From Stackebrandtia endophytica (GTDB taxonomy: Bacteria; Actinomycetota; Actinomycetes; Mycobacteriales; Micromonosporaceae): a DNA stretch of 64,000 bases. Position 1 is the first letter of the stretch, and every line of letters starts with the position of its first letter. The stretch is from positions 186,001 through 250,000 of the forward strand of contig NZ_VFOW01000001.1 of NCBI RefSeq assembly GCF_006716355.1. The letters run 5' to 3'. Positions 3,781 through 36,729 of this stretch are shown here, in pieces. A model generated the notes under the pieces. The model did no database searches and was not told the origin of the DNA. It saw only the letters and a program-made list of their open reading frames with translations. A program made the position numbers and the translations under genes.

Positions 3781-3824
3781 GCGAGTCGGCTTAGAAACGG
3801 TGACTCGTGTCTACCATCAGGTCG

Positions 3825-4406
3825 ATGAGCACCGTGATCATGCACAACGTGGTGTCCGTCGACGGCTACATCGCCGACGCGGACGATGATGTGGGGCCAC
3901 TGTTCGAGTGGTACACCAACGGCGACGTCCCGTTGGACGACTCCGGTGGGTTGACCGTCTCACGGGTGTCGGCCGACTATGTGCGTCCCATGTGGGACCA
4001 GATCGGCGTCCTGGTCATCGGACGTCACCTGTTCGACATCACCAACGGCTGGGAGGGGAACCCCCCGGCCGGGGAACACGTCGTCGTGGTGTCCCAGCGC
4101 GACAAACCGAACAGTTGGCACCCGGAGGCCTCGTACCATTTCATCTCCGGTGTCTCCGAGGCCGTCGAGACGGCCAAACGTCTGGCCGACGGTCGGGTGG
4201 TCGGAATCGCAGCGGGTGACGTGGGTGGACAGGCATTCGCGTCGGGCCTGGTGGACGAGGTGGCGATGGACGTCGCGCCGGTGGTGTTCGGATCCGGCAA
4301 ACGGTACTTCGGTGGTGTCGACGGTCAACACCTGTTGGAGAACCCCGACGTGGTGATCCAAGGTGATCGGGTCCTACACCTGCGTTTTCGCGTCCGCAGG
4401 GACTGA
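3825..4406 (+). CDS. RibD C-terminal / dihydrofolate reductase-like protein
   Basis: About 193 residues with the RibD_C fold: opening strand MSTVIMHNVVSVDGYIAD, then a Rossmann-like core with VLVIGRHLFDITNGW, and ADGRVVGIAAGDVGGQAFASGLVDEVAMDVAPVVFGSGKRYF near the end. Members are NADPH-dependent reductases of pterin- or pyrimidine-like substrates. This standalone form is common in actinobacteria and is generally not the essential FolA. The ATG at 3825 has AGG upstream. A GTG at 3807 would add six residues. It converges on the WYL regulator gene with only 18 bp between stops. Confidence 0.82.
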   Translation: MSTVIMHNVVSVDGYIADADDDVGPLFEWYTNGDVPLDDSGGLTVSRVSADYVRPMWDQIGVLVIGRHLFDITNGWEGNPPAGEHVVVVSQRDKPNSWHPEASYHFISGVSEAVETAKRLADGRVVGIAAGDVGGQAFASGLVDEVAMDVAPVVFGSGKRYFGGVDGQHLLENPDVVIQGDRVLHLRFRVRRD

Positions 4407-4424: not shown

Positions 4425-5390
4425 TCAGTGGTCCTCCATCGAGGCCGCCAATCGGGCGGCGAAGGTCCGGCACCAGTCGCGGAACGGCTCGGGAGCGGCG
4501 ACGGTGAAGTCGGCGTCCAACTGCGCCAGTTTCAAGATCAGCCACTGTGGTGATTCGATCCACACGGTCAGCCGGGTCCGGTCGGGCGCCAACGACTCGA
4601 TCGTGCAGTCCTGCCAGGTGAAGACGTCGGCGACCGTCTCACCGGCGGCGTCGATGGTGACCACGACTTCCCGCCGGTCACCGCGCATCGCGGTGCGCAA
4701 ATACTCCTCGGCCGAATCGGCGGGCAGTTCACGGGGCGGAAACGGGGTGCCGGTGATGCGGGGTGCGTCGATGCGATCGACGCGGAAGACTCGCCAATCG
4801 GCGCGGTCGAGGTCCCAGCCCAACAGGTACCACCGGAGGAACCGCAAGACATGGCGATACGGCTCGACTCGACGGACCGAGCCGACACCGGAGGCGCTGC
4901 GGTAGTCGAAGGTGACGACCTGATGTCGTTGCGCGGCCTGCGCGATCGTGACAAGGGTGCCCGGGTCGGTGGTCGGCACCGGTTGCAGTGAGGTCTCCAG
5001 GCTGCCACGCAACGCCCGTACCTTCGGGCGAAGCGATGTCGGCAACAACTGGTCGATACGTCCGAACGCGCGACGTGCCGCATCGTCGAGTCGCCCGGGG
5101 TGAGCTCCGTCGACACCGCTAGTGACCATCGCCAGCCCGATCAGGGTCGCCACCGCCTCCTCGTCGTCGAAGACCATCGGGGGGAGCGTCGTTCCGGCAC
5201 CGAGACGGTAGTACCCGGAGGGTCCGGGTTGGGTCGTGACCGGATATCCGTAGCCGCGCAACCGTTCGACGTCCCGGCGAAGCGTGCGGGTACTCACCTC
5301 CAGGCGGTCGGCCAGCTCCTCGCCGCTGAATCGGCGACCGGTCTGCAGGGTCGCCATCAGGGCGAGCATTCGTCGGGTGACATCGGCCAT
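4425..5390 (-). CDS. HTH/WYL domain transcriptional regulator
   Basis: About 321 residues. The N-terminal HTH_11 helix-turn-helix (RRFSGEELADRLEVSTRTLRRDVERLRGYGYPV) is followed by the WYL domain (HQVVTFDYRSASG through VEPYRHVLRFLRWYLLGWDLDRADWRVFRVDRI), where the W-Y-L residues appear as RWYLLGWD, then a C-terminal WCX extension. WYL regulators sense nucleic-acid-related or other small ligands and often sit beside stress, repair or defence genes. The gene is divergent from the UvrA-like gene with about 60 bp between starts, so it plausibly controls that gene. Start chosen at MADVTRRM; an upstream in-frame ATG exists at 5432. Confidence 0.87.
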   Translation of the reverse strand: MADVTRRMLALMATLQTGRRFSGEELADRLEVSTRTLRRDVERLRGYGYPVTTQPGPSGYYRLGAGTTLPPMVFDDEEAVATLIGLAMVTSGVDGAHPGRLDDAARRAFGRIDQLLPTSLRPKVRALRGSLETSLQPVPTTDPGTLVTIAQAAQRHQVVTFDYRSASGVGSVRRVEPYRHVLRFLRWYLLGWDLDRADWRVFRVDRIDAPRITGTPFPPRELPADSAEEYLRTAMRGDRREVVVTIDAAGETVADVFTWQDCTIESLAPDRTRLTVWIESPQWLILKLAQLDADFTVAAPEPFRDWCRTFAARLAASMEDH

Positions 5391-5452
5391 GACTCGATGA
5401 TCTCTCTCATTGCGGTCAGAATCCGGCCACAATATGGATTAGCGTCCGATAA

Positions 5453-7699
5453 ATGAGTTTTGAGCGGTCATCCACACCGGCTATTCGGATTCGTCGGGCA
5501 CGCACCAACAACCTGCGCGGCATCGATATCGACATTCCCAGGAACGCACTGGTGGTGTTCGCCGGGTTGTCGGGATCGGGCAAGTCGTCGCTGCTGTTCG
5601 ACACGATCGCGGCGGAGGCCGGCCATCAACTCAACGAGACCTTCCCACCGTTCGTACGCAATCGGCTGCCCAAGTGGCAACGGCCCGAAGTCGATCACAT
5701 CGGCGGCCTGTCGACGGTCGTGGTGATCGACCAACGCCGCATCGGCGGCAACGCCCGCTCGACGGTCGGAACGATCACCGATGCCTACACCTACCTTCGG
5801 CTGCTGTTCTCACGGATCGGTGCGCCCGAGATCGGCGAGTCGAATCGCTTCTCGTTCAACGACCCCGCCGGGATGTGCCCGACCTGCTCAGGGCTGGGTG
5901 AGACCGTGATTCCGGTCGTCGACAGGTTCATCGACCTGGACCGATCACTCGCCGATGGAGCAATCCTGTTGCCCGGATTCGGCAGTGGAAAGTATTGGTA
6001 CGCCAAGTACGCCGGCATCGGCAGCTTCGACGCCGATACCCCGCTTCGCGATTGGACGGTCGGCGAACGGGAGGCACTGCTGTACGGCGGGGAGGCGGCG
6101 GCACGGCTGGGAACCGCGCCGCCCAGCGACTACCAGGGCATCCTCGAACGGTTCGAGCGGATCTATCTGCGTACATCGGACAATCTCTCCGACGCCAAGC
6201 GAGCCGTGCTGAATCGATTCACCGACATGCGGCAGTGTCCACAATGTGGCGGTGACCGCCTCAACGAGACCGCGCGTGCCGTCACCGTTCGCGGGCACAC
6301 CATCAGTCAGCTGTCGAACATGGAGATCAGCGAGTTGACCGGTTTGATCCCCCGGTTCACCGAGCCGAGCGTCGAGCCGGTAGTCGAGGCACTGCACCGG
6401 CGATTGACCGCTATCACCGACATCGGGTTGGGCTACCTCAACCTCGCCCGCGCCACCACCACGTTGTCGGGTGGGGAATCGCAACGGATCAAGACGATCC
6501 GACACCTGGGAAGCAGCCTCATCGAGATGCTGTACATCTTCGACGAACCCACCATCGGACTGCACCCCAGTGATGTCACATCGATGACCAACCTGCTGCG
6601 GAAGCTGGCCGATCAGGGCAACACGGTCCTGGTGGTGGAGCACGATCCCCAAGTCATGTCGATCGCCGACCAGATCGTCGAACTCGGTCCCGGCGCCGGA
6701 ACCCTCGGCGGTGAGCTGGTGTTTCAGGGCTCGTGGTCACAGCTGACCGCCACCGACACGGTGACCGCGCGAGCGCTGCGCGCCGGTCGACGCACCCCGG
6801 CTGGGCGTCGACCCACCGGGAAAGTCACCGTGACCCACGCAGCCCGCAACAATCTTCGCGACCTCACCGTCGACATTCCGCTGGGAGTCCTGACGGTGCT
6901 GACCGGGGTCGCCGGATCGGGTAAGTCGAGTCTGGCCGCCGAGCTCGTCGCCCAGCACGAAGCCACCATCATCGACCAACGGCCCGTCAGCACGAGCCGA
7001 CGGTCGACGCCGCTCACCTACACCGGCATCGCCCCCGACGTCCGCAAGCTGTTCGCCAAGGCCAACGGGGTGAGCCCGACGCTGTTCAGCGCCAACTCGG
7101 CGGGTGGCTGTCCCGAGTGCGACGGGTTGGGCGTCATCTACACCGATCTGGCCTTCATGGATGGTCAGGAGACCGTCTGCGGCGCCTGTCACGGACGCCG
7201 GTTCTCCCCGGAGGCGCTCTCACACACACTGGACGGTTTGACGATCGCCGACATCGACGAACTGACCGTCGCCGAAGCAGTCGACCGATTGCCTCACGCC
7301 TCCATCGGTTCGGCACTGCGTCAGATCACCTCGGTGGGCTTGGGGTATCTACGACTCGGGCAGCCACTCAACACTCTGTCGGGTGGCGAGTGTCAACGGC
7401 TGAAGATCGCCCGCGAGCTGTCCGGAGACTCCGTCGACCTGTACGTGCTCGACGAGCCGACGACCGGACTGCACCTTCGCGACATCGACACACTTTTGGA
7501 CATGTTGGACGGACTGGTACGACCGGGCACCGGCGTGGTCGTCATCGAACACCACCTCGACGTGATCCGCCACGCCGACTGGGTCGTCGACCTGGGCCCC
7601 GGAGCCGGCCGGCACGGCGGACGGGTGCTGTTCGAGGGCGAGCCCGCCGACCTGGCGACCCAGGACTCCCCGACCGGACGAGCGCTACGCGACGCATGA
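5453..7699 (+). CDS. UvrA-like ABC ATPase (short paralogue)
   Basis: 748 residues with two ABC-type ATPase halves: P-loops GLSGSGKSSLLFD and GVAGSGKSSLAAE, signatures LSGGESQRIK and LSGGECQRLK, Walker B segments IFDEPTIGL and VLDEPTTGL, and CxxC zinc modules (CPTCSGLG, CPQCGGDRL, CPECDGLG, CGACHGRRF). Canonical UvrA is about 950 residues. This short class lacks much of the UvrB-binding and insertion region. Relatives include UvrA2-type proteins and the DrrC/self-resistance group that removes intercalators from DNA. It is probably not the housekeeping excinuclease subunit. The close divergent WYL gene suggests inducible expression. Confidence 0.88.
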   Translation: MSFERSSTPAIRIRRARTNNLRGIDIDIPRNALVVFAGLSGSGKSSLLFDTIAAEAGHQLNETFPPFVRNRLPKWQRPEVDHIGGLSTVVVIDQRRIGGNARSTVGTITDAYTYLRLLFSRIGAPEIGESNRFSFNDPAGMCPTCSGLGETVIPVVDRFIDLDRSLADGAILLPGFGSGKYWYAKYAGIGSFDADTPLRDWTVGEREALLYGGEAAARLGTAPPSDYQGILERFERIYLRTSDNLSDAKRAVLNRFTDMRQCPQCGGDRLNETARAVTVRGHTISQLSNMEISELTGLIPRFTEPSVEPVVEALHRRLTAITDIGLGYLNLARATTTLSGGESQRIKTIRHLGSSLIEMLYIFDEPTIGLHPSDVTSMTNLLRKLADQGNTVLVVEHDPQVMSIADQIVELGPGAGTLGGELVFQGSWSQLTATDTVTARALRAGRRTPAGRRPTGKVTVTHAARNNLRDLTVDIPLGVLTVLTGVAGSGKSSLAAELVAQHEATIIDQRPVSTSRRSTPLTYTGIAPDVRKLFAKANGVSPTLFSANSAGGCPECDGLGVIYTDLAFMDGQETVCGACHGRRFSPEALSHTLDGLTIADIDELTVAEAVDRLPHASIGSALRQITSVGLGYLRLGQPLNTLSGGECQRLKIARELSGDSVDLYVLDEPTTGLHLRDIDTLLDMLDGLVRPGTGVVVIEHHLDVIRHADWVVDLGPGAGRHGGRVLFEGEPADLATQDSPTGRALRDA

Positions 7700-7701
7700 C
7701 G

Positions 7702-7737
7702 CGGTGGAGGTGGCCGGGAGGCCGTCCACCTCCACCG
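7702..7737 (+). terminator. Hairpin after UvrA-like gene
   Basis: Perfect 12-bp stem, CGGTGGAGGTGG (7702-7713) with CCACCTCCACCG (7726-7737), loop of 12, starting directly after the stop codon at 7699. Most likely the transcription terminator that separates this gene from the protease/STAND unit. Confidence 0.6.
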
Positions 7738-7831
7738 TCACCGATGCTTTGTCCGCCAACGGTTATCGATGTCAGATGCGGTGGCTTGGTAAACTCATTG
7801 GACAGTCTCGATTCCCCTCAGCGAGGTTCCC

Positions 7832-8188
7832 GTGCGCCAACGCATCCCCGTCAAGGTCGGTAACGCCGAATTCCTCATCGAAACCGTCGACGAGACCACC
7901 GGAACCGCCACCGACTGGAGCTCCCCCGACGGCGCGTTGACACCGATCGGCGACGATGCCGGCTCCGAGGTGCCCGAATCGTTCCAGCAGATTCGGGCCA
8001 TGGTCGAGGCGGTCGCCGGCGAACTCACCGCGGCCTGGGAGAAGGTGCGGCCCGACGAGGCGACCGTCGAATTCGGAGTAGCCGCCGACGTCAAGTCGGG
8101 ACGCCTGACCGGCCTACTCGTCAGCGGAGGCGCATCGGCGTCCCTGAAGGTGACTCTCAAATGGACTGCCACAACAGACGGTGACTGA
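7832..8188 (+). CDS. Trypsin-co-occurring domain 1 protein (CU044_2847 family)
   Basis: A small 118-residue protein. It opens with beta strands (RIPVKVGNAEFLIETVDE), has a central helix (ESFQQIRAMVEAVAGELTAAWEKVRPDEATVEFGVAADVKSGRL) and closes with LLVSGGASASLKVTLKW. This pattern matches the small protein family named for appearing next to trypsin-like peptidase/STAND genes. The GTG start has GCGAGG upstream. It is followed after 11 bp by the protease-STAND gene, so the two are almost certainly co-transcribed. Family knowledge suggests it is a partner, substrate or regulator of the protease. That role is not demonstrated by the sequence. Confidence 0.8.
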   Translation: MRQRIPVKVGNAEFLIETVDETTGTATDWSSPDGALTPIGDDAGSEVPESFQQIRAMVEAVAGELTAAWEKVRPDEATVEFGVAADVKSGRLTGLLVSGGASASLKVTLKWTATTDGD

Positions 8189-8199
8189 CGGGAGAACAC

Positions 8200-10875
8200 A
8201 TGGCCCCGATCGCGATCAGAGATGAGGCGCTGCACGGCTTCGGCGTCAAGATATCCGTCACGGAGCCCACCACCCGCGGGTTCCGCGGCTCCGGATTCTT
8301 CATCGCACCCGGCTTCGTTCTCACCTGCTCCCACGTCGTCCACCAGCTGCCCATCGGCGCCCCGCTCTGGGTATCCACCGGGTCACCGCCACATCGACCG
8401 CGCCGCGACATTCGCGGTAGGCTGCGCGCCCGCACGCCGATGACCGCCGGCACCGACGGCATCTGGGGTTGGCCGGACCTCGCGATCATCGAGCTGAGCG
8501 ACGCCACCGGTGACCGACACACCGACCATCCGTCTCCACGAGTGGATCCGAACCATCCGACGCCGCAGACCCCGACGGACTACCGCGCCATCGTCGCCGT
8601 ACGCCCCAACACCGGCAATGAACACTCCATTCCGGAACTGCGCAGCGTGGACTTCACCTGGGAGAGCGTCAGCGAATCGGGATTCTGGTGGCTCAAGGAG
8701 GGCCACGCCCTCAAGGGCATGTCGGGCGGAATGGTCGTCGATCGGCGGTCCCGTGCGATCGTGGCGGCGCTGACCGAGTCCCGGGGGTTTCAAGGTGCCG
8801 TGGCGGTCCCGTTGGCGGCGTTGTCCTCCGACCGACTTCCCGGCGAGTTCGCCGCAGTGGCCGCCGAGGTTCTCGCACAGCTGGGCCCGGTGGATCGCGC
8901 GTGGGACGCCGCCTTCACCGACCAGGCCGACGGGCGAGCCCCGTGGCGAAGCTACTGGCCGTCCATCCCCGGGTTCGTCGGTCGCCAGAGCGAACTGGAT
9001 CAACTGAAGTCCGAATTGGAACGCCACAACGGATTCGCCGTGATCCAGTCGATCCATGGATTCGGCGGAGTCGGGAAGACGGCGCTGGCCACGGCGTTCG
9101 GTGACCGATTCCAGCACGAGTTCGCCGGCCGGATCTTCCACGACTTCCGGTCGTACCGTTCGAGTCAGTCCGACTCCGCCTTCGACGCACTCGGCTCGGT
9201 CCTGCGAACCGCCGGGCTGGCGACCACCGAAGATGTGGCCAAATCGGACTATCAGGAGCGGGTCCGACTGTGGCGGGAGAACACCAACGGCCGACGGCTG
9301 TTGATGCTCTGGGACAATGTCGACAGTCCCGAACAACTGGAGGGCCTGCTGGTCAACGGCGAGGGTTGTGCCACCCTGATAACCAGTCGCGACATGATCA
9401 AGATCGAGGGCGGGGTGCATCGTCTTCGGCTCGACGTGCTCACGCCGGAGGACGCCGCGGCGATGTTCCACGAGATCACCGCGCACGAGTACTCCCGCGA
9501 GCTGGTCGCCGAGTTGGTACATCGAGATCTGTATGTGCCGGTGCTCATCAACACCCACGCCCAGGAGGTTCGCTCCGGAGAGATCACGCTGGCCGAGATC
9601 ATCGCCGACCTACCGGACCCACAGGAGGCTCGGCACCATTCCCACCCGGAACACCAGAAGGATCTGTTCGACAGGCTCACCGGCTCCTATCGACGGTTGA
9701 GCGGCGACGCGCAGCTGGCGTTTCGGGCGATGGGTGCCCATCCCGGTTACAACGCGACGGTCGCGAGTCTGGCGGCGGCGATGGGGTGTGACACCGTCGA
9801 AGCGGCGCGGCGAATGCGGCAGGTCCAACAGTCGGGTCTCGCCGAGCGCTACACCCCCGAGGGCGTCGGTCAGCCGGACGATGCGACGTTGCGCGGCTTC
9901 CGAGCGCACGATCTGATTCGTGCCTTCGGTGCGCATCTGGCCGAGACCACCACCGTTCCCGGACCGGACGGACAGTCCACGAGTGAGCGGGACCGGTTTC
10001 GCTCCGGCATGATGGAGCATTTCATCAAACTGTTGACCGGCAACGACTTCAAGGACTGGTTTGAGGTCGAGGCCGACACCATTCGTGACCTGGCGTTGAC
10101 CGGGTCCTCCAAGAAACACGGAGTCCTGGCCCGCAACATCGGATACCGCGCGCTGGTCTACAACCGTTACGACGCCGCCGAAGTGGGCTTTCAACACGGA
10201 ACGCGCATCGGCGAGAAGCTCGGTGACGTCGCCCGCACCGCACACTGCCATTGGGGTTTGGGTGAGGTCGCCCGACTCACCGGGAACCTGGATTCGGCCG
10301 AACAGCGGTATCGGGAGGCGTTGCGACTGTCCACGTCGGCGGAGGATCCCGGCGGCATCGGAAACGCGCACCGCGGACTGGCTGAAGTGGAGCAACTGCG
10401 CGACGAACCCGACGCGGCCGCAGCGCGGTGGAGCCAGGCGATGGAGGCATACCGGGCGATCGACGACCGGCGCCGAGTCGCCTACGTCGAACGTGGACTG
10501 GCCCGGGTGGCCGAGTTGCAGGGGCGGTTCGAGTTGGCCGAACGGTACTTCACCGACTCCCTGGACAGTTCACGCACAGTCGGGGACCGGATCGGCATCG
10601 CCTACGCGCTGCGTGGCCTCGGAGACATCCACCTCCGACAGTCTAGTTTGGATCAGGCTCGGGACCGCTATTCACAGTCTCAGGCCGCCTACCGCGAGAT
10701 CGGTGATCCGGTCGGCGCGGCCACCGGCCGGCGAGGGCTCGGCCGGGTAGCCCACGCCCGAGGTGATCTCGACGAGGCCCGCCGACTGCTCACCGAGGCG
10801 GCCGAGGTCTTCAACGCCTATCACGCCGACACCTGGGTCGAGCGCGTCAACGCCGACCTGGCAGACCTCGACTGA
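8200..10875 (+). CDS. Trypsin-like protease / NB-ARC NTPase / TPR protein (STAND)
   Basis: An 891-residue multidomain protein. Residues about 10-230 are a trypsin-fold serine peptidase with His45 (LTCSHVV), Asp93 (WPDLAIIEL) and Ser175 (KGMSGGMVV), so the triad is intact. A linker leads to an NB-ARC ATPase with P-loop GFGGVGKT (287-294) and a LLMLWDNVD Walker B. The C-terminal third has tetratricopeptide repeats (HCHWGLGEVARLTGNLDSAE, ALRGLGDIHLRQSSLDQARD). No signal peptide is seen, so it is likely cytoplasmic. Predicted logic: TPRs sense a trigger, NB-ARC oligomerises, and the protease is activated, as in bacterial conflict proteins. GGAGAA precedes the ATG. Confidence 0.88.
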   Translation: MAPIAIRDEALHGFGVKISVTEPTTRGFRGSGFFIAPGFVLTCSHVVHQLPIGAPLWVSTGSPPHRPRRDIRGRLRARTPMTAGTDGIWGWPDLAIIELSDATGDRHTDHPSPRVDPNHPTPQTPTDYRAIVAVRPNTGNEHSIPELRSVDFTWESVSESGFWWLKEGHALKGMSGGMVVDRRSRAIVAALTESRGFQGAVAVPLAALSSDRLPGEFAAVAAEVLAQLGPVDRAWDAAFTDQADGRAPWRSYWPSIPGFVGRQSELDQLKSELERHNGFAVIQSIHGFGGVGKTALATAFGDRFQHEFAGRIFHDFRSYRSSQSDSAFDALGSVLRTAGLATTEDVAKSDYQERVRLWRENTNGRRLLMLWDNVDSPEQLEGLLVNGEGCATLITSRDMIKIEGGVHRLRLDVLTPEDAAAMFHEITAHEYSRELVAELVHRDLYVPVLINTHAQEVRSGEITLAEIIADLPDPQEARHHSHPEHQKDLFDRLTGSYRRLSGDAQLAFRAMGAHPGYNATVASLAAAMGCDTVEAARRMRQVQQSGLAERYTPEGVGQPDDATLRGFRAHDLIRAFGAHLAETTTVPGPDGQSTSERDRFRSGMMEHFIKLLTGNDFKDWFEVEADTIRDLALTGSSKKHGVLARNIGYRALVYNRYDAAEVGFQHGTRIGEKLGDVARTAHCHWGLGEVARLTGNLDSAEQRYREALRLSTSAEDPGGIGNAHRGLAEVEQLRDEPDAAAARWSQAMEAYRAIDDRRRVAYVERGLARVAELQGRFELAERYFTDSLDSSRTVGDRIGIAYALRGLGDIHLRQSSLDQARDRYSQSQAAYREIGDPVGAATGRRGLGRVAHARGDLDEARRLLTEAAEVFNAYHADTWVERVNADLADLD

Positions 10876-11042
10876 TCTCGTCCTCGGCACGCCAACCGGA
10901 GCTGCTTGTCGTCGGTGTGGTGTGTCGGTGTTGATCGAAGCGAATGCCTCGGCATCGATATACCACGGTGAGTACCGCAGGTGTCGGGCGATTCATGCCT
11001 TGACAAACCCTCCCCGGGCGCCGACCGGACACGCGCCGCCGC

Positions 11043-11639
11043 TCAGCCGCCCCCGAGTGAGTTGCCCAGTACGGCGTCGACCAGACGCGCCGCATCGCCC
11101 TCGGCCACCGGCACCCGACCCAGCGCCCGCACCAGAACCGCGCCGATCAACGCCTCCCCCACCTCCTGCAGCGGTGCGTCGGCTCGCAATTGGGACGACG
11201 CGACCGCCGAGGCCAGTCGGACCGCGATCGACGACGTGCCTCCGAGACTGTCACGCAGCCTGCGCCCCACATCGGCGTTCTCGGTGGCGGCCGCGATCAG
11301 TGAACGCAACAGCCCTTCGCCTCCGGGTTCGCTCAGAATGTCGAACAGCCGTTGAATCCAGTCGACCAGGTCGGCACGAAGGTCACCGGTATCGGTGAGC
11401 GCGAACCGTTGCGGCAGCAGCATGCCCTCCAGCAGACACTCCGCCACCAGCTCCCCCTTCGACGGCCACCATCGGTAGATGGTCTGTTTGCCCACACCGG
11501 CCTCGGCGGCGATCCGCTCCATGGCGAGATTGTCGTAACCGGCCTGCGCGAACAGCCGCGCGGTCGCGCTCAGAATCGCGCGCCGAGCCGCTTCACTGCG
11601 TACCGCGCCCCGACGCCGCCCAGTCATGACGTTCATCAT
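11043..11639 (-). CDS. TetR family repressor
   Basis: 198 residues. The N-terminal HTH (ARRAILSATARLFAQAGYDNLAMERIAAEAGVGKQTIYRWWPSKGELVAECL) is classic TetR, with KQTIYRWWPSK as the recognition helix. The C-terminal domain resembles the TetR_C_11-like class (GEGLLRSLIAAATENADVGRRLRDSL). Start codons at 11639, 11636 and 11627 are all possible; none has a strong ribosome site, so a leaderless or near-leaderless message is possible. It is divergent from the MMPL transporter with only 60 bp between starts, which strongly suggests that it represses that transporter and itself. Confidence 0.87.
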   Translation of the reverse strand: MMNVMTGRRRGAVRSEAARRAILSATARLFAQAGYDNLAMERIAAEAGVGKQTIYRWWPSKGELVAECLLEGMLLPQRFALTDTGDLRADLVDWIQRLFDILSEPGGEGLLRSLIAAATENADVGRRLRDSLGGTSSIAVRLASAVASSQLRADAPLQEVGEALIGAVLVRALGRVPVAEGDAARLVDAVLGNSLGGG

Positions 11640-11659
11640 ACGACCATATTAACGAGACA

Positions 11660-11667
11660 CAACGTTG
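11660..11667. promoter_or_regulatory. Candidate TetR operator core in divergent promoter
   Basis: The AT-rich 60-bp gap between the tetR-like and MMPL genes contains the perfect palindrome CAACGTTG, set in CGAGACACAACGTTGCGTATTATT. Its location between two divergent starts makes it the best operator candidate. Flanking symmetry is weak, so the exact site is uncertain. Confidence 0.4.
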
Positions 11668-11699
11668 CGTATTATTGATCGCCGATCGAGAGGACGAAC

Positions 11700-14186
11700 A
11701 TGGCAGAACTGCTATACCGACTGGGCACCTTCGCCGCCCGCCGAGCCTGGGCGGTGATCACCACCTGGATACTGCTCCTGGGCATCGCCGCGGCCGGATA
11801 CGTTGTCGGGTCGGGAAGCCTGGCCACGAGCTTCGACGTCCCCGACACCGCCTCGTCGACGGTGATCAGTGAACTGGAGGAACAACTTCCCGACTTCGCA
11901 GGGGCATCGGGCACCGTGGTGTTCCACACCACCGATGGCGAAGCGTTCACCGAAGAACAACGATCCGCCATCAGCGCGTTGATCGAGGATGCCGACGGCC
12001 TACCCGACGTCTCCGGTGTCACGGACCCCTTCGCCACCGAACAGATGCGTGCCGATCAGGCAACAGACATGGCCGACGGCCGCACCCAGATCGACGAGGG
12101 TATCGAGCAGCTGGACGCCGGCCAGATCGAACTCGACCAGGCGGTCGAAGCACTCGACACAGCCCAGGGCGAGTTGGACCAGGCCCGCGAACAGGCCGAA
12201 GCCGCCGGCGCTCCCGCCGAGCAGCTGGCGATACTCGACGCGCAACAGGATCAGCTCGACGAACAACGAGACACCGTCGACCAGCAGCAGGACGAACTCG
12301 ATGCCGGGCGCACCGAGTTGACCACCCAACTCGAGGAACTCGAACTGGGTGAAGAACTGTTGCGCAACGCCGACGGCATTCGCATGGTCGCCGAAGACGA
12401 ATCGGCGGCATTGGGCAACATCGCCTTCACACAACCGCGCATGGAGTTGGAGGAGTCCTCCAAAGACGCGGTCATGGACTACTTCACCGCCACCGAGATC
12501 GACGGCGTCGACGTCGCATTCTCCACCGACATCGCCCAGGGCATACCTCAGATCCTCGGCGTGGGAGAGATCGTCGGCGTGGTGATCGCCGCCATCGTCC
12601 TACTGGTCATGTTCGGGACCGTGATCGCCGCCGCGCTTCCCATCGCAACCGCCGTCGTCGGCGTGGGCATCGGCGCTCTCAGCGCGTTGGCCTTCTCAGG
12701 CGTCGTGCAGATGTCTTCGATAACGCCCGTCTTGGGCGTCATGCTGGGGCTTGCGGTGGGCATCGACTACTCGCTGTTCATCATCAACCGTCATCGAAAG
12801 CAGCTGAGAGAGGGAGCCGAGCTCTCCGAATCGATCGGTGTCGCCAACGGCACCGCCGGCAACGCGGTGGTGTTCGCCGGGTCGACCGTCGTCGTGGCGC
12901 TCGCGGCGCTCAACATCACGGGCATCCCCTTCCTCGGGATGATGGGAACCGTCGGCGCCGTCTGCGTCGCGATCGCCGTCCTGCTCTCGGTCAGCTTCAC
13001 CCCAGCGTTGCTCAGCCTGGTGGGCACCCGGGTACTGCCGAAACGTGCCCGCAAGGTCGACGCCGAGAAGTCCTCCCCCGCGAAGAAGACCGTCGCCCCC
13101 ATGTCGACCGGCCGCGCCGTCATGACCGCGCTGGTCACCGCCGCCGCGCTGCTGACCATCGCGATACCGGCGTTGTCCATGCGGTTGGGTCTGCCCGACG
13201 GCTCATCGGAGCCGGAAGGGTCGGCGGCGAACCGCGCCTTCGCAGTCACCGAGGACAGTTTCGGGGCCGGGGCCAACGGCCCCCTGCTGGTGACCGCTCA
13301 CCTATCCGGAGACCCGGAGCAGGCACTGGCCGAGCAGGTCGACATCGCCGGTGAGATATCCGCCCACGAAGACGTGGTGGCGGTCGCGCCGGTCGCGGTA
13401 TCCGATGACGGTGCGTTGGCAGCGTTCCAGGTGCTGCCGGTAGACGGCCCCAACAGCGAGACCACCGCGGAACTGGTCCGCGACCTGCGGGGCCTGACCG
13501 TCGGGGACGACGGTGCCACGCTCGGGGTGGCGGGACAGGCCGCGATCAACATCGACATCTCGGAGAGCCTGAGCGACATTCTGCCGATCTACCTGGCGGT
13601 CGTGGTCGGACTCTCCCTGATCATCATGATCGCGGTGTTCCGGTCCCTGTTGGTGCCGCTGGTCGCCACGATCGGGTTCATCCTGTCGTTGTTCGCCACG
13701 TTCGGCGCGGTCGTCGCGGTCTTCCAGTGGGGCTGGCTCGCCGATGTGTTGGGCCTGGCCAACAGCGGTCCGATTCTGAGCTTCCTACCGGTCATCCTGG
13801 TGGGAATCCTCTTCGGATTGGCGATGGACTATCAGCTTTTCCTGGCGACCGGGATGCGTGAAGCGTTCGTCCACGGTGACTCCGCACGAGTCGCGGTGGT
13901 CCGGGGCTTCCGGGCCGGACGATCCGTCGTCCTCGCCGCGGGCCTGATCATGGCGGCGGTGTTCGGCGGGTTCATCTTCTCCAACGCGATCATGATTCGC
14001 TCGGTCGGGTTCGGATTGGCGATCGGTGTGCTGCTGGACGCGTTCGTCGTTCGCATGCTGTTCATGCCCGCGATGATGCATCTGCTATCGAAGTCGGCCT
14101 GGTGGCTGCCTCGCTGGCTGGACCGCATCCTTCCCAACGTCGACGTGGAGGGCTCGGCCCTGGAACGTCGGCACAACCTGCACTGA
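11700..14186 (+). CDS. MMPL/RND-family transporter with long coiled-coil insertion
   Basis: 828 residues. Two RND-like halves are visible: an N-terminal helix (AWAVITTWILLLGIAAAGYVV), a first transmembrane bundle (IVGVVIAAIVLLVMFGTVIAA through SVSFTPALLSLVG), a second extracytoplasmic loop and a second bundle (LPIYLAVVVGLSLIIMIAVF through GFGLAIGVLLDAFVVRMLFMPA). The family exports lipids or drugs using the proton gradient. The first extracytoplasmic region carries an unusually regular Gln/Asp/Leu-rich coiled coil at about residues 120-215, with repeated QLDAGQ and ELDQA heptads. GAGAGGA precedes the ATG. The divergent TetR gene is its likely regulator. Confidence 0.9.
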   Translation: MAELLYRLGTFAARRAWAVITTWILLLGIAAAGYVVGSGSLATSFDVPDTASSTVISELEEQLPDFAGASGTVVFHTTDGEAFTEEQRSAISALIEDADGLPDVSGVTDPFATEQMRADQATDMADGRTQIDEGIEQLDAGQIELDQAVEALDTAQGELDQAREQAEAAGAPAEQLAILDAQQDQLDEQRDTVDQQQDELDAGRTELTTQLEELELGEELLRNADGIRMVAEDESAALGNIAFTQPRMELEESSKDAVMDYFTATEIDGVDVAFSTDIAQGIPQILGVGEIVGVVIAAIVLLVMFGTVIAAALPIATAVVGVGIGALSALAFSGVVQMSSITPVLGVMLGLAVGIDYSLFIINRHRKQLREGAELSESIGVANGTAGNAVVFAGSTVVVALAALNITGIPFLGMMGTVGAVCVAIAVLLSVSFTPALLSLVGTRVLPKRARKVDAEKSSPAKKTVAPMSTGRAVMTALVTAAALLTIAIPALSMRLGLPDGSSEPEGSAANRAFAVTEDSFGAGANGPLLVTAHLSGDPEQALAEQVDIAGEISAHEDVVAVAPVAVSDDGALAAFQVLPVDGPNSETTAELVRDLRGLTVGDDGATLGVAGQAAINIDISESLSDILPIYLAVVVGLSLIIMIAVFRSLLVPLVATIGFILSLFATFGAVVAVFQWGWLADVLGLANSGPILSFLPVILVGILFGLAMDYQLFLATGMREAFVHGDSARVAVVRGFRAGRSVVLAAGLIMAAVFGGFIFSNAIMIRSVGFGLAIGVLLDAFVVRMLFMPAMMHLLSKSAWWLPRWLDRILPNVDVEGSALERRHNLH

Positions 14187-14384: not shown

Positions 14385-14495
14385 TCAGCGACCGCGTGGA
14401 TGTCGTGGCGGGCGAATCGTCACCAGTACGACGCCCGCGATGATTAGGGAGATCACCAGGATCACCCCGATCACGATGTCCAACACCGTCTGCAT
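14385..14495 (-). CDS. 36-residue single-span membrane microprotein downstream of TerC
   Basis: Translated on the minus strand from ATG 14495-14493 to TGA 14387-14385: MQTVLDIVIGVILVISLIIA, then GVVLVTIRPPRHPRGR. It has one hydrophobic helix of about 22 residues followed by a short Arg/Pro/His-rich tail, so the basic end is predicted to be cytoplasmic. The start overlaps the terC-like stop in a TGATG arrangement, AGGAG lies 9 bases upstream inside the terC-like coding end, and a strong terminator follows directly. This layout supports a real translationally coupled gene. Function is unknown; an accessory subunit of the TerC transporter is an inference. Confidence 0.65.
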   Translation of the reverse strand: MQTVLDIVIGVILVISLIIAGVVLVTIRPPRHPRGR

Positions 14496-15505
14496 CAGGA
14501 CCCGCTCCTAACCGCCTTACGCTCGTCGCGCTTGTTCGCGTGCAAGCTGGTCACGACCACCGCGGCCAACACCACGACGATGAAGCCCAGCGACAAGGTT
14601 GTCGGCACGTCCGGCACGGACGGCCACACGGTGTGCGCCCAGTGCAGAACCAGTTTCGCACCGATGAAGGCCAAAATCAGGGCCAGCCCGTGATTGAGGT
14701 AGCGCAGTTTCGCCAGCGCCGAGTGCAGCACGAAGTACAGTGCCCGCAATCCCAACAGGGCGAACGCGTTGGTGGTGAAGACCAGGTAGGGATCGGCGGT
14801 GATGCCGTAGACGGCGGGGACCGAGTCGACGGCGAACACGATGTCGGTGGCGAACACCGCGAAGATCACCACGGCCAGCGGGGTGAGCGCGCGACGTCCG
14901 TTCTCCCGGGTGAGGATCCGGGTGCCCTGGTACTCCTTCGACACCGGCATGATGCGACGCAGCATCTTGACCGATCGCATCTCGCTGACATCGGTTTCCT
15001 CGTCGGAACCGGACATCACGTCACGCAACAGTTTCAGCGCCGACAGCAGCAGGACCAGACCGAACAGCAGGAACGCCCAGGTACCGGCCTTCAACATGGC
15101 CGCGCCGAGCGCGATGAAGATACCGCGCAGCACGATGGCGCCGACGATGCCGAACAGCAGGACGCGTTGCCGCACCGCCACGGGTACCGCGAAACCAGCC
15201 AGAATCAGCATGAACACGAACAGGTTGTCGACCGACAACGACTTCTCGACGACGAAACCGGTCAGGAAGTCGACGGCCTCTCCGGCGCCGAACGCGGGCC
15301 ACAGCCACAACGCGAACAGCAGTGGCAGCGTCAAGTAGAAGACCGACCAGCCGATCGCCTCACGCATCGATACTTCATGAGGTTTGCGGGTGATGATGAA
15401 ATCCACCACCAGCAGGCCGATCAGCACCGCGATGCTGATCCCCCAGAGCATCGGGGATGCGATCGATGCCGTGACATCCTCGCCGGCATTGGCGGAAAAG
15501 GGCAC
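14495..15505 (-). CDS. TerC family integral membrane protein (metal exporter type)
   Basis: 336 residues with about nine membrane helices and the TerC core: DFIITRKPHEVSMREAIGWSVFY, the acidic GEAVDFLTGFVVEKSLSVDNLFVF motif, and a later FATDIVFAVDSVPAVYGITADPYLVFTTNAFALLGLRALYF motif. Conserved Asp and Glu residues in the membrane resemble a cation site. TerC/Alx proteins export Mn(II) or protect metalloprotein assembly. The GTG start is 6 bases from a GAGGAG ribosome site that can be buried by an upstream RNA hairpin, and the leader looks like a yybP-ykoY aptamer, which supports a manganese-responsive role. Confidence 0.9.
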   Translation of the reverse strand: MPFSANAGEDVTASIASPMLWGISIAVLIGLLVVDFIITRKPHEVSMREAIGWSVFYLTLPLLFALWLWPAFGAGEAVDFLTGFVVEKSLSVDNLFVFMLILAGFAVPVAVRQRVLLFGIVGAIVLRGIFIALGAAMLKAGTWAFLLFGLVLLLSALKLLRDVMSGSDEETDVSEMRSVKMLRRIMPVSKEYQGTRILTRENGRRALTPLAVVIFAVFATDIVFAVDSVPAVYGITADPYLVFTTNAFALLGLRALYFVLHSALAKLRYLNHGLALILAFIGAKLVLHWAHTVWPSVPDVPTTLSLGFIVVVLAAVVVTSLHANKRDERKAVRSGS

Positions 15506-33912: not shown

Positions 33913-36729
33913 ATGTCCGCTTCACGCCTCTCTGTCGATTATGGAACAACGAACACCGTGGCGGTGTTGTCGTGGCACGACGAGAGACCGCGCGTGCTGC
34001 ACTTCGGTCCGTCGGCGTTGCTGGCGTCGGCGGTTCACTCCGACGGTGCGGGGCGGTTGTCGACCGGAAACGACGCGGTTCGCGCTGGCCGCAGCAACCC
34101 GTCGGGGTTCGAACCCCATCCCAAGCGACGGATCGACGACGGCGAGGTGCTACTGGGTGCCTCGACGCACCCGGTCGCGGAGTTGATCGCTGCGACCCTG
34201 TCAACGGTCCGAGTCGAAGCCGAACGGGTATCCAACGGCCCGATCGACGAGCTCGTCATGACCATCCCGGCCGGCTGGGCGACACCACGACGATCGGTGC
34301 TGGCCGAGGCCGCGTCGCTGGCGGAACTCCCCGAACCGACATTCGTCCCCGAACCGGTGGCGGCGGCATCCTATTTCGCCACCCGGGCTCAGGCGCCGAT
34401 CCCCGACGGCGGGACCGCCGTGGTGTACGACTTGGGCGCGGGAACCTTCGACGTCACGGTGGTTCGCCGCACCGGCACCGACTTCGAAGTACTGGCGGTC
34501 AACGGCCTTGACGACCTCGGAGGCATCGACCTCGATCAGGTCCTCATCGAACTGATCGGCGCCTCGCTGAACCACGAACGTCGTGATGTCTGGCGGCGAT
34601 TGCTCGCACCCGCCGACGCCACCGCCATGCGCGCTCGACACGAACTGTGGCGCGACGTCCGCGACGCCAGGGAAGCCCTGTCCCGTCAACCTAACGCGGA
34701 CATATATCTGCCGTTGGTCGATCATCAGGTGCACATCAATCGAGAGGAATTCGAACAACACGCCGCGGTCGTGTTGGGACCCACCATCACCACGATGATG
34801 CGCGCCGTCGGTGACTCCGGCATACCGCCCGCCGATCTCGCGGGCGTCCTTCTCGTCGGCGGTGCCAGCCGGACGCCCCTGATCGCCACCCTGGTCCACC
34901 GCGCCGTCACCATCGCACCGACCACAGTGGAACAGCCGGAGCTCGTCGTCGCCGACGGCGGACTGTGCGCCGCACCGATCGACCAACCGTCGGCGACCGC
35001 GCCCCCGCGCCCCACCGATTCCCGTCCCGAACGCCCCCGGGTGCCGTTGCCGAGCGAGGTCGCACGAATCATCGGCTCCGTCATGCAGGAGGAGGTCGCC
35101 CTCGCGACAGAACAGGGTCGGGGGCCGGGTCTGTCGGCAGCCGTGTCACTGTTGGCCCGTATCGATCCCACCGCCGCCATCGACCGACTTCTGTCCATGG
35201 AGGACGTTTACTCCTTCTCGAATGTCTTCGATGTATTGTCCGGCGACGTTTCCGCCATCACCGACGCCCTCGATCAGGTGCCCGAAGACCACCCGCTCCG
35301 GCACATCGCACTGTTCGAGGCCGCTGAGGCCCTCGCGACGACGGCGCCCGAGACGGCCGCGAATCTCTTCGACCGATGTGATCGGATGCTTCGCGCGACG
35401 CCGACACCGTCTCGGCAGACCCGCGTGGCCCTCCTGCGAAGCGCCGCGTTGTGGAGCGCAGCGAGCGACGACGCGAGTGAACGCCGGTTGACGGCGGTCA
35501 CCCCGCCACACCAACGAGACCGGTATCTCGCCCTGTGCCAGGCCATTCGGCCGCTGGCGGCCGCCGATCCGCAGCGGGCACTGCGCACCCTGCCCATCGC
35601 CGTCAACGGCACCGGCGACGAGGAACTCTCGGTCGGAATCCTCGTCCGATATGTCGGGGTGGTGGACGTCGAGCGCGCCGGAGGTCTCGTCGCCCGGGCC
35701 ACCCGTCCCGACGGACGGTGCGAAGTGTTGCTGCTGATCGCCGCCCTGACCGAGGACTCCGCACATGCACGAGGTCTACTGTCGGAAGTGGAGCGTCTCA
35801 TTCCGCAGCTGCCGCAGGGCTACCGGCGCGACCTCGTCTTCCGCAAGGTGGTCAACGCGTGGGCGACGGTCGACCCCGAGCGCGCGGAGTATCTGCTCGC
35901 CTCACCACTTGACGGCGATCCGTTCAACAGCTGGGTCCTGGCGGAACTCGCGGTCGAGCTGGCGAAAGTCGACATCGAACGAGCGGTGCAACTCCACCGG
36001 ATGCTCCCCGACGAGTACGCCGAGATGGCGGTGTCGTTGGCGGAGGCCCTGCTCGAGGTCGACGTCCAGGCCGCCGAACGGGTCGCACATACCATTCCGG
36101 GACGATTCGACCTGTGGGAATACCGCATCGCCGACCTGGTCGAGCAATTCGCGGAGGTCGACCTTCCCGCCGCCGAACGGCTCACCGGCAGGCTTCCCGC
36201 CGACGACACCGAAGCCGACGACGCCCGGTTGGCGCTGGCCAGGCAATGGGCCGGTATCGCTCCGGATCGCGCGGAACACTGGGCGCGTGCCATCGTGAGT
36301 CCCTACGACGAATGCGCCGCCGTCTGCGCGTTGGCCGCCACCGCCGCCGGGTACACCCGGAGTAGCCCCAAGCGGGCGCGGCGACTTCTCAAGGAGGCCA
36401 CCGAACTCGCCGCCGGATTGAGCGGACGCGACGAGATCGACGGGTTGATCGCCCTCGGCACGGCGGCCGCCGGTCTGGATCCCGCCGAGGCCGCGCGCAC
36501 CCTCGCCAAGGCCGAACCGATGGTGCGCGCCGTCGACCATCGGGCGTCGCACAACGCCTACACCCGGGACCTGGCCCATGCCTGGATGACCGTTGATCGG
36601 GAACGATCCGAACGCCTACTGCGCTCGCTCAAGGACGACCCGCTACGAACCAGGCACCTGTTGTTCATCGCCGAGGAGGCCGCTCGCAAACACGGCATCA
36701 CCGTGCGGCCCGCCGGACCGCGAAGATGA
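33913..36729 (+). CDS. Hsp70-like ATPase fused to ~33-residue helical repeats
   Basis: 938 residues. Residues 1 to about 365 are an actin/Hsp70 ATPase: phosphate 1 VDYGTTNTVAVL, phosphate 2 VVYDLGAGTFDVTV, adenosine LLVGGASRTPLI. There is no DnaK peptide-binding domain. The remainder is helical with recurring (V/I)(D/A)-x-x-x-A-x-x-(L/V) units: ADPQRALRTL (551), VDVERAGGL (584), VDPERAEYLL (653), VDIERAVQL (686), VDVQAAERV (716), VDLPAAERL (749), IAPDRAEHW (782), LDPAEAARTL (855), VDRERSERLL (894), mostly 33 apart. This is probably an alpha-solenoid that binds a partner. No signal peptide or membrane helix is seen, so it is cytoplasmic. Confidence 0.86.
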   Translation: MSASRLSVDYGTTNTVAVLSWHDERPRVLHFGPSALLASAVHSDGAGRLSTGNDAVRAGRSNPSGFEPHPKRRIDDGEVLLGASTHPVAELIAATLSTVRVEAERVSNGPIDELVMTIPAGWATPRRSVLAEAASLAELPEPTFVPEPVAAASYFATRAQAPIPDGGTAVVYDLGAGTFDVTVVRRTGTDFEVLAVNGLDDLGGIDLDQVLIELIGASLNHERRDVWRRLLAPADATAMRARHELWRDVRDAREALSRQPNADIYLPLVDHQVHINREEFEQHAAVVLGPTITTMMRAVGDSGIPPADLAGVLLVGGASRTPLIATLVHRAVTIAPTTVEQPELVVADGGLCAAPIDQPSATAPPRPTDSRPERPRVPLPSEVARIIGSVMQEEVALATEQGRGPGLSAAVSLLARIDPTAAIDRLLSMEDVYSFSNVFDVLSGDVSAITDALDQVPEDHPLRHIALFEAAEALATTAPETAANLFDRCDRMLRATPTPSRQTRVALLRSAALWSAASDDASERRLTAVTPPHQRDRYLALCQAIRPLAAADPQRALRTLPIAVNGTGDEELSVGILVRYVGVVDVERAGGLVARATRPDGRCEVLLLIAALTEDSAHARGLLSEVERLIPQLPQGYRRDLVFRKVVNAWATVDPERAEYLLASPLDGDPFNSWVLAELAVELAKVDIERAVQLHRMLPDEYAEMAVSLAEALLEVDVQAAERVAHTIPGRFDLWEYRIADLVEQFAEVDLPAAERLTGRLPADDTEADDARLALARQWAGIAPDRAEHWARAIVSPYDECAAVCALAATAAGYTRSSPKRARRLLKEATELAAGLSGRDEIDGLIALGTAAAGLDPAEAARTLAKAEPMVRAVDHRASHNAYTRDLAHAWMTVDRERSERLLRSLKDDPLRTRHLLFIAEEAARKHGITVRPAGPRR

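Follow-up and report, generated by a model that had tools for sequence, protein, structure and literature searches.

Genes and features at the locus

The DNA analysed here (the window) is a stretch of 64,000 nucleotides from the soil actinobacterium Stackebrandtia endophytica, in which two neighbouring genes on the + strand encode a small Trypco1 protein and a large protein that combines a trypsin-like protease domain, an NB-ARC STAND ATPase and a TPR region. The two reading frames are separated by 11 bp (stop codon at 8188, ATG at 8200). The features of the locus are as follows, with the evidence for each given in brackets.

7701–7738, + strand: GC-rich hairpin, probable terminator belonging to the preceding UvrA-like ABC gene (folding z-score)
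7786–7795, + strand: TTGGTAAACT, extended -10-like element with a putative promoter role (conserved upstream of the pair)
7832–8188, + strand: Trypco1 protein, 118 aa, GTG start (PF19493 and NF041216 matches, AlphaFold2 model)
8200–10875, + strand: trypsin-like protease/NB-ARC STAND/TPR protein, 891 aa (Pfam, ortholog alignment, AlphaFold2, Foldseek)
8200–8904, + strand: trypsin-fold protease domain, residues 1–235 (invariant triad; Trypsin_2 at 30–186)
8332–8334, 8476–8478 and 8722–8724, + strand: catalytic H45, D93 and S175 (invariant in the ortholog and wider alignments)
8965–9519, + strand: NB-ARC ATPase domain, about residues 256–440 (NB-ARC, 32.9 bits; AfsR homology)
9058–9081, + strand: P-loop, residues 287–294 (exact GFGGVGKT)
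9520–9999, + strand: helical/winged-helix-like arm, about residues 441–600, with MHD-like His570-Asp571 (ortholog invariance; mostly helical in AlphaFold2)
10057–10869, + strand: TPR solenoid, about residues 620–890, putative sensor (TPR_12 and TPR_MalT; helix pairs; LGN/KLC TPR matches)

Trypco1 and the protease-STAND protein

The product of the upstream gene matches the Pfam family Trypco1 (PF19493) with 63.2 bits (E=3.7e-17; curated cut-off 24.6) as well as the NCBIfam model CU044_2847 (NF041216), and its gene adjoins that of a trypsin-like peptidase on the same strand. Trypco1 was described beside the trypsin domains of VMAP ternary systems, for which conflict roles were predicted (Kaur et al. 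2020, PMC7159879), and was termed an adapter in a later paper (PMC10907252); in the literature considered it is a predicted neighbour or adapter only, without an assigned function. The AlphaFold2 model, of moderate confidence (pLDDT 70), has a beta-beta-alpha-beta-beta arrangement with a single long helix (residues 51–72) flanked by strand pairs. A fold search against the PDB gave no match with E<1, a profile search returned nothing significant, and few columns are conserved across 51 Trypco1 sequences. We also looked for natural fusions of Trypco1 and trypsin and found none that was convincing; the long frames considered as candidates were judged to be run-on ORFs.

For the large protein, the sequence-only reading had described an intact triad (His45, Asp93, Ser175), an intact P-loop, C-terminal TPRs and a small dedicated partner encoded 11 bp upstream in a two-gene protease-STAND unit, and all of these elements were recovered by our comparisons, with triad, P-loop and gap at the positions given. 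The three catalytic residues do not vary across six full-length orthologs, nor in any of the 41 sequences of a wider alignment, which consists almost entirely of proteases neighbouring Trypco1. The His-Asp-Ser order and the GxSG motif of the PA clan (G173-M-S175-G) are likewise present and invariant. The Pfam match to Trypsin_2 (residues 30–186) reaches 26.2 bits, just below the cut-off of 27.6; this weak score is settled by the invariant triad together with the modelled fold, in which the domain is beta-rich with high-pLDDT strands and is matched by Foldseek to urokinase (3kgp, TMt 0.65), as expected of a chymotrypsin-like double beta-barrel. Cleavage after Arg or Lys is doubtful, because the residue six positions before Ser175 is His or Gln in the orthologs, not Asp.

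The NB-ARC match (residues 263–432, 32.9 bits) lies above the Pfam cut-off, and the exact P-loop GFGGVGKT, a Walker-B-like WDN (371–373, with D372), TxR (395–397, with R397) and the MHD-like H570-D571, which make up the STAND/NB-ARC motif set, are invariant in the orthologs (for the last, in all six). The C-terminal region matches TPR_12 with 93.9 bits and also TPR_MalT, and its helix pairs are modelled with a pLDDT of mostly 90–98. Over the whole protein the AlphaFold2 model has a mean pLDDT of 83.8 and a pTM of 0.61, so that the relative placement of the domains is uncertain. The protein is probably cytosolic, since neither a signal peptide nor a membrane segment is apparent in its sequence. 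A hypervariable TPR sensor was sought by pairwise identity and not seen (0.53 for the TPRs vs 0.54 for the protease).

Among solved proteins, the best sequence match is AfsR (8k60/8jke; E=3e-46, residues 234–608), and the NCBIfam models HaaT and AfsR match with 6e-48 and 5e-41. By fold, Foldseek placed the STAND-TPR structure 6mfv on top and ADP-bound Apaf-1 lower, with LGN/KLC matching the TPRs. In AfsR, the NOD and TPR parts inhibit the effector and ATP lifts this inhibition (PMC10936776). The two proteins share an NB-ARC homologous over about 370 residues, a TPR C-terminus and an N-terminal effector that here, too, would be under NOD/TPR control, but the effector is a DNA-binding SARP in AfsR and a protease in our protein, which also has Trypco1 as a partner. 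It is thus no AfsR equivalog: the model NF053617 scores 140.7 vs 1430 bits, and its match starts at residue 255, the N-terminus being the protease. About 20 other AfsR-type NB-ARC proteins are encoded in the same genome, mostly as frames of ~950–1150 aa, one of them with an internal TGA.

A promoter-like element and a hairpin upstream of the pair

The motif TTGnTAnnnT lies 41–51 nt before the Trypco1 start codon in the window and in five orthologs (the six closest loci), against a background expectation of 0.0035 per 120-nt region. In a distant homolog (L116), 64 nt separate it from the position used as the start. Within the 64-kb window TTGNTANNNT occurs just once. The motif resembles an extended -10 element and may serve as the promoter of the pair, although a sigma-70 consensus scan found no -35/-10 pair. 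Both this conserved element and the association of the partner with the protease domain, described below, go beyond what had been noticed from the window by itself.

The hairpin at 7701–7738 had been taken to isolate the pair as its own unit. Its folding is well supported (-33.1 kcal/mol over a 66-nt stretch, z=-3.47, with 0/200 shuffles folding equally well), but it is probably the terminator of the upstream gene, because it begins 2 nt past that gene's stop codon, and nothing obviously equivalent precedes the orthologs; for the same reasons we rejected it as a component of the pair. No T-tract is present at the hairpin.

Distribution and genomic neighbourhood of the pair

Orthologs were identified by an alignment-based scan of genome contigs, while a single-protein scan gave no matches. 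Full-length orthologs from Glycomyces and Stackebrandtia albiflava share 47–55% identity over nearly the whole length. In the five orthologs the two genes alone remain together, with Trypco1 upstream of the protease gene in every case. The protease-STAND protein and Trypco1 form a genuine two-gene unit. Of the genomes scanned, 2/5 in Stackebrandtia and 4/22 in the Glycomyces genus have the protease domain, with a distant version in one more of the latter; the pair is therefore accessory, with a patchy distribution of six close copies in 27 genomes. No match to the protease domain was found on phages or plasmids.

The flanks of the orthologs are mostly unshared, the exceptions being the Glycomyces loci L112 and L113, one gene common to L113 and L115, and TerC in three loci, and they lack a further conserved gene that might act as substrate or effector. 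The TerC-family gene is found no more than about 10 kb from the pair (window 14495–15505; L112 10813–11811; L113 3–410), and its recurrence may reflect chance or old synteny. Upstream of the pair in the window, a 748-aa UvrA-like ABC ATPase (5453–7699) neighbours an oppositely oriented WYL regulator (4425–5432), and a RibD_C protein is encoded at 3807–4406. Just 3' of the pair, a TetR regulator is divergent from an MMPL transporter (11043–14186). Further downstream, the frame at 33913–36729 encodes a 938-aa protein whose HSP70 match is confined to residues 89–359.

Trypco1 follows the protease domain across different chassis

When loci were collected in relatives with the Trypco1 model alone, 26/31 had a trypsin-like gene no further than about 120 bp away, a pairing that exceeds chance and agrees with the dedicated partner proposed from the window. 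Most gaps measure -4 to +17 bp, with both genes on one strand; larger overlaps are explained by start codons that were not refined. Trypsin_2 was detected in 36/41 partner proteins, in combination with nSTAND1, NACHT, WD40, TPR or AAA_16, and with CHAT in one. Pairwise distances of Trypco1 and trypsin sequences are correlated (r=0.79 for 44 pairs; r=0.61 for a non-redundant set of 26 pairs; 0/5000 permutations as high), which is also expected from the simple co-inheritance of neighbouring genes.

The reverse situation is found in Glycomyces dulcitolivorans (L137) and G. lechevalierae (L138), which carry an NB-ARC-TPR chassis 40% identical over residues 244–873 (protein at 9491–12031 in both loci) with a different N-terminal sequence that lacks a Pfam match. 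Trypco1 was not found in either of these 21.9-kb loci. In both, a GNAT acetyltransferase-like gene lies upstream of the chassis gene. The varied chassis that occur with trypsin and Trypco1, and the chassis that has neither, suggest that Trypco1 belongs to the protease domain and not to the STAND part, and we predict it to be a dedicated partner of that domain.

A tentative extension is to regard Trypco1 as a portable subunit with a control function, which moves together with one type of protease domain between many STAND chassis. In this view, AfsR-type chassis of antibiotic regulators became NLR-like immune proteases when their N-terminal effector was exchanged along with its control gene, and the pair would represent a minimal analogue of the apoptosome in filamentous actinobacteria, with one receptor and one cofactor. 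The pair also connects protease effectors with the chassis of the AfsR regulator. The Glycomyces chassis without protease and Trypco1 make the role of Trypco1 directly testable, and predict that it binds to the protease domain alone.

Defence context and comparison with known systems

A conserved association with defence genes, suggested as an indicator of a defence role, was not supported. PADLOC hits among 124 flank genes of 21 Trypco1 loci were not more frequent than among 119 genes of 20 arbitrary stretches from the same or related genomes, a small sample in which the models (PADLOC 2023) include generic ATPases, the counts come from the top 25 families and exclude a single, very large gene of the flanks. 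No defence-island enrichment was thus seen in this comparison, and no defence system was found in the flanks of the window. Among the flanks of the orthologs, cas genes occur once, at the distant copy L116 (G166, Glycomyces genus), where type I-E Cas6e, Cas5e, Cas7e and Cse1 (7037–10998) lie about 4.4–8.4 kb from the homolog. On the pair itself, no specific anti-phage model of PADLOC 2.0 was matched, the hits being generic TPR models and weak ones such as RT-Protease_XI.

An anti-phage role is nevertheless plausible on the basis of the architecture, the patchy distribution and the analogy with the proteases of Avs1/Hachiman and with LypA of the CARD-NLR-like system. Trypsin-like proteases fused to defence enzymes were shown experimentally to act in Hachiman and AVAST via nuclease activation (PMC12799240), and the protease activity of LypA is required for lysis in the CARD-NLR-like system (PMC13236601). 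Compared with Avs1 and protease-fused Hachiman, where the partner is an MBL nuclease, no such nuclease is found nearby; the genes upstream of the protease are Trypco1 and the UvrA-like ABC ATPase, which sets the locus apart from AVAST type 1 and the nuclease-protease pairs. With CARD-NLR/LypABC the protein shares a trypsin-like domain on a STAND-like ATPase, a TPR NLR being part of that system, but several genes with CARD and nuclease are involved there, whereas here a single TPR polypeptide is present in which no CARD was identified.

The VMAP ternary systems (Kaur et al. 2020, PMC7159879) are similar in that a Trypco1 gene stands beside an N-terminal trypsin-like domain on an NTPase-dependent signalling protein of filamentous actinobacteria. 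The chassis differs, however, being NB-ARC-TPR here and VMAP there: VMAP-C gave no match in the large protein and no MoxR or vWA gene was found among six adjacent genes scanned, which places the pair outside the VMAP ternary systems. A weak, sub-threshold VMAP-C match (22.5 bits) was noted elsewhere in the genome, in a 383-aa frame at G000:C1:5287611–5287931. The unit is best read as an addition to the conflict systems of Trypco and trypsin that Kaur et al. predicted, with the AfsR-type chassis, the swap controls and the promoter-like element as the most useful additions.

Proposed mechanism and alternative explanations

We propose, with about even confidence, that the pair forms a ligand- and ATP-gated protease switch working by induced proximity, built on an ATP-driven sensor of the apoptosome type and with Trypco1 as a cofactor of the protease domain, and that it probably serves as a stress or phage alarm. 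In the resting state, the 891-aa protein would be monomeric, ADP-bound and kept inactive by the TPR solenoid. Once the TPRs bind a cue, which probably signals infection or stress in the cell, ADP could be exchanged for ATP, upon which the AfsR-type STAND module would oligomerise, cluster the N-terminal trypsin-like domains and thereby switch them on. The active protease would then cleave a cellular or invader protein, resulting in cell arrest or death. The ADP/ATP cycle, oligomerisation and activation by proximity are proposed by analogy with STAND biology. Trypco1, presumably co-expressed from the common promoter, would bind the protease domain and not the STAND part, acting as an adaptor or a brake.

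A layout typical of bacterial conflict proteins had been recognised from the window by itself. Of this, a sensor solenoid coupled via a STAND ATPase to an effector is supported, while the conflict role is stated conditionally, since AfsR, the closest solved chassis by sequence, is a transcription activator. The switch model is supported by the conserved triad and P-loop, the homology of the chassis to AfsR and its fold matches to 6mfv and Apaf-1, the tracking of the trypsin domain by Trypco1, the patchy occurrence with few flanks in common, and the experimental links of trypsin-NTPase fusions to phage defence or lysis. Counting against the switch model are this regulator-like chassis, the absence of PADLOC enrichment, of a third conserved gene and of phage or plasmid matches, TPRs that are not hypervariable and the only moderately confident model of Trypco1.

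A regulatory alternative, which we regard as rather unlikely, is an AfsR-like STAND regulator that exchanged its SARP for a protease and exerts physiological or developmental control by regulated proteolysis, for example of a repressor or an anti-sigma factor. The AfsR chassis, its numerous paralogs in the genome, the metabolic, transport and regulator genes in the flanks and the missing defence enrichment are in favour of this explanation. However, a gene pair present in so few of the Stackebrandtia (2/5) and Glycomyces (4/22, plus one distant) genomes is ill-suited to core regulation, and the setting of Trypco1 beside trypsin was predicted to be that of a conflict system (PMC7159879).

We consider it improbable that Trypco1 is instead a substrate or latent effector of the protease, in a proenzyme-style arrangement like that of the MBL nuclease cleaved by the downstream protease in Hachiman/AVAST. 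The position of the partner gene 5' of the protease fusion, as in nuclease-protease pairs (PMC12799240), the strict pairing and the correlated distances would fit such a role, but Trypco1 comprises about 110 aa with a simple fold in which a catalytic motif could not be recognised, and its 51 sequences have few conserved columns and revealed no conserved insertion of a cleavage-like kind. We favour a role of Trypco1 as cofactor of the protease domain over that of a substrate. Finally, it is highly improbable that the protein is an ordinary protease with a housekeeping function, to which STAND and TPR parts are fused incidentally: such domains are common, with nine other Trypsin_2 matches in the genome, but none of those genes is linked to Trypco1, because the genome has a single copy of it, and both the accessory distribution of the pair and the conserved STAND switch motifs argue against this reading.
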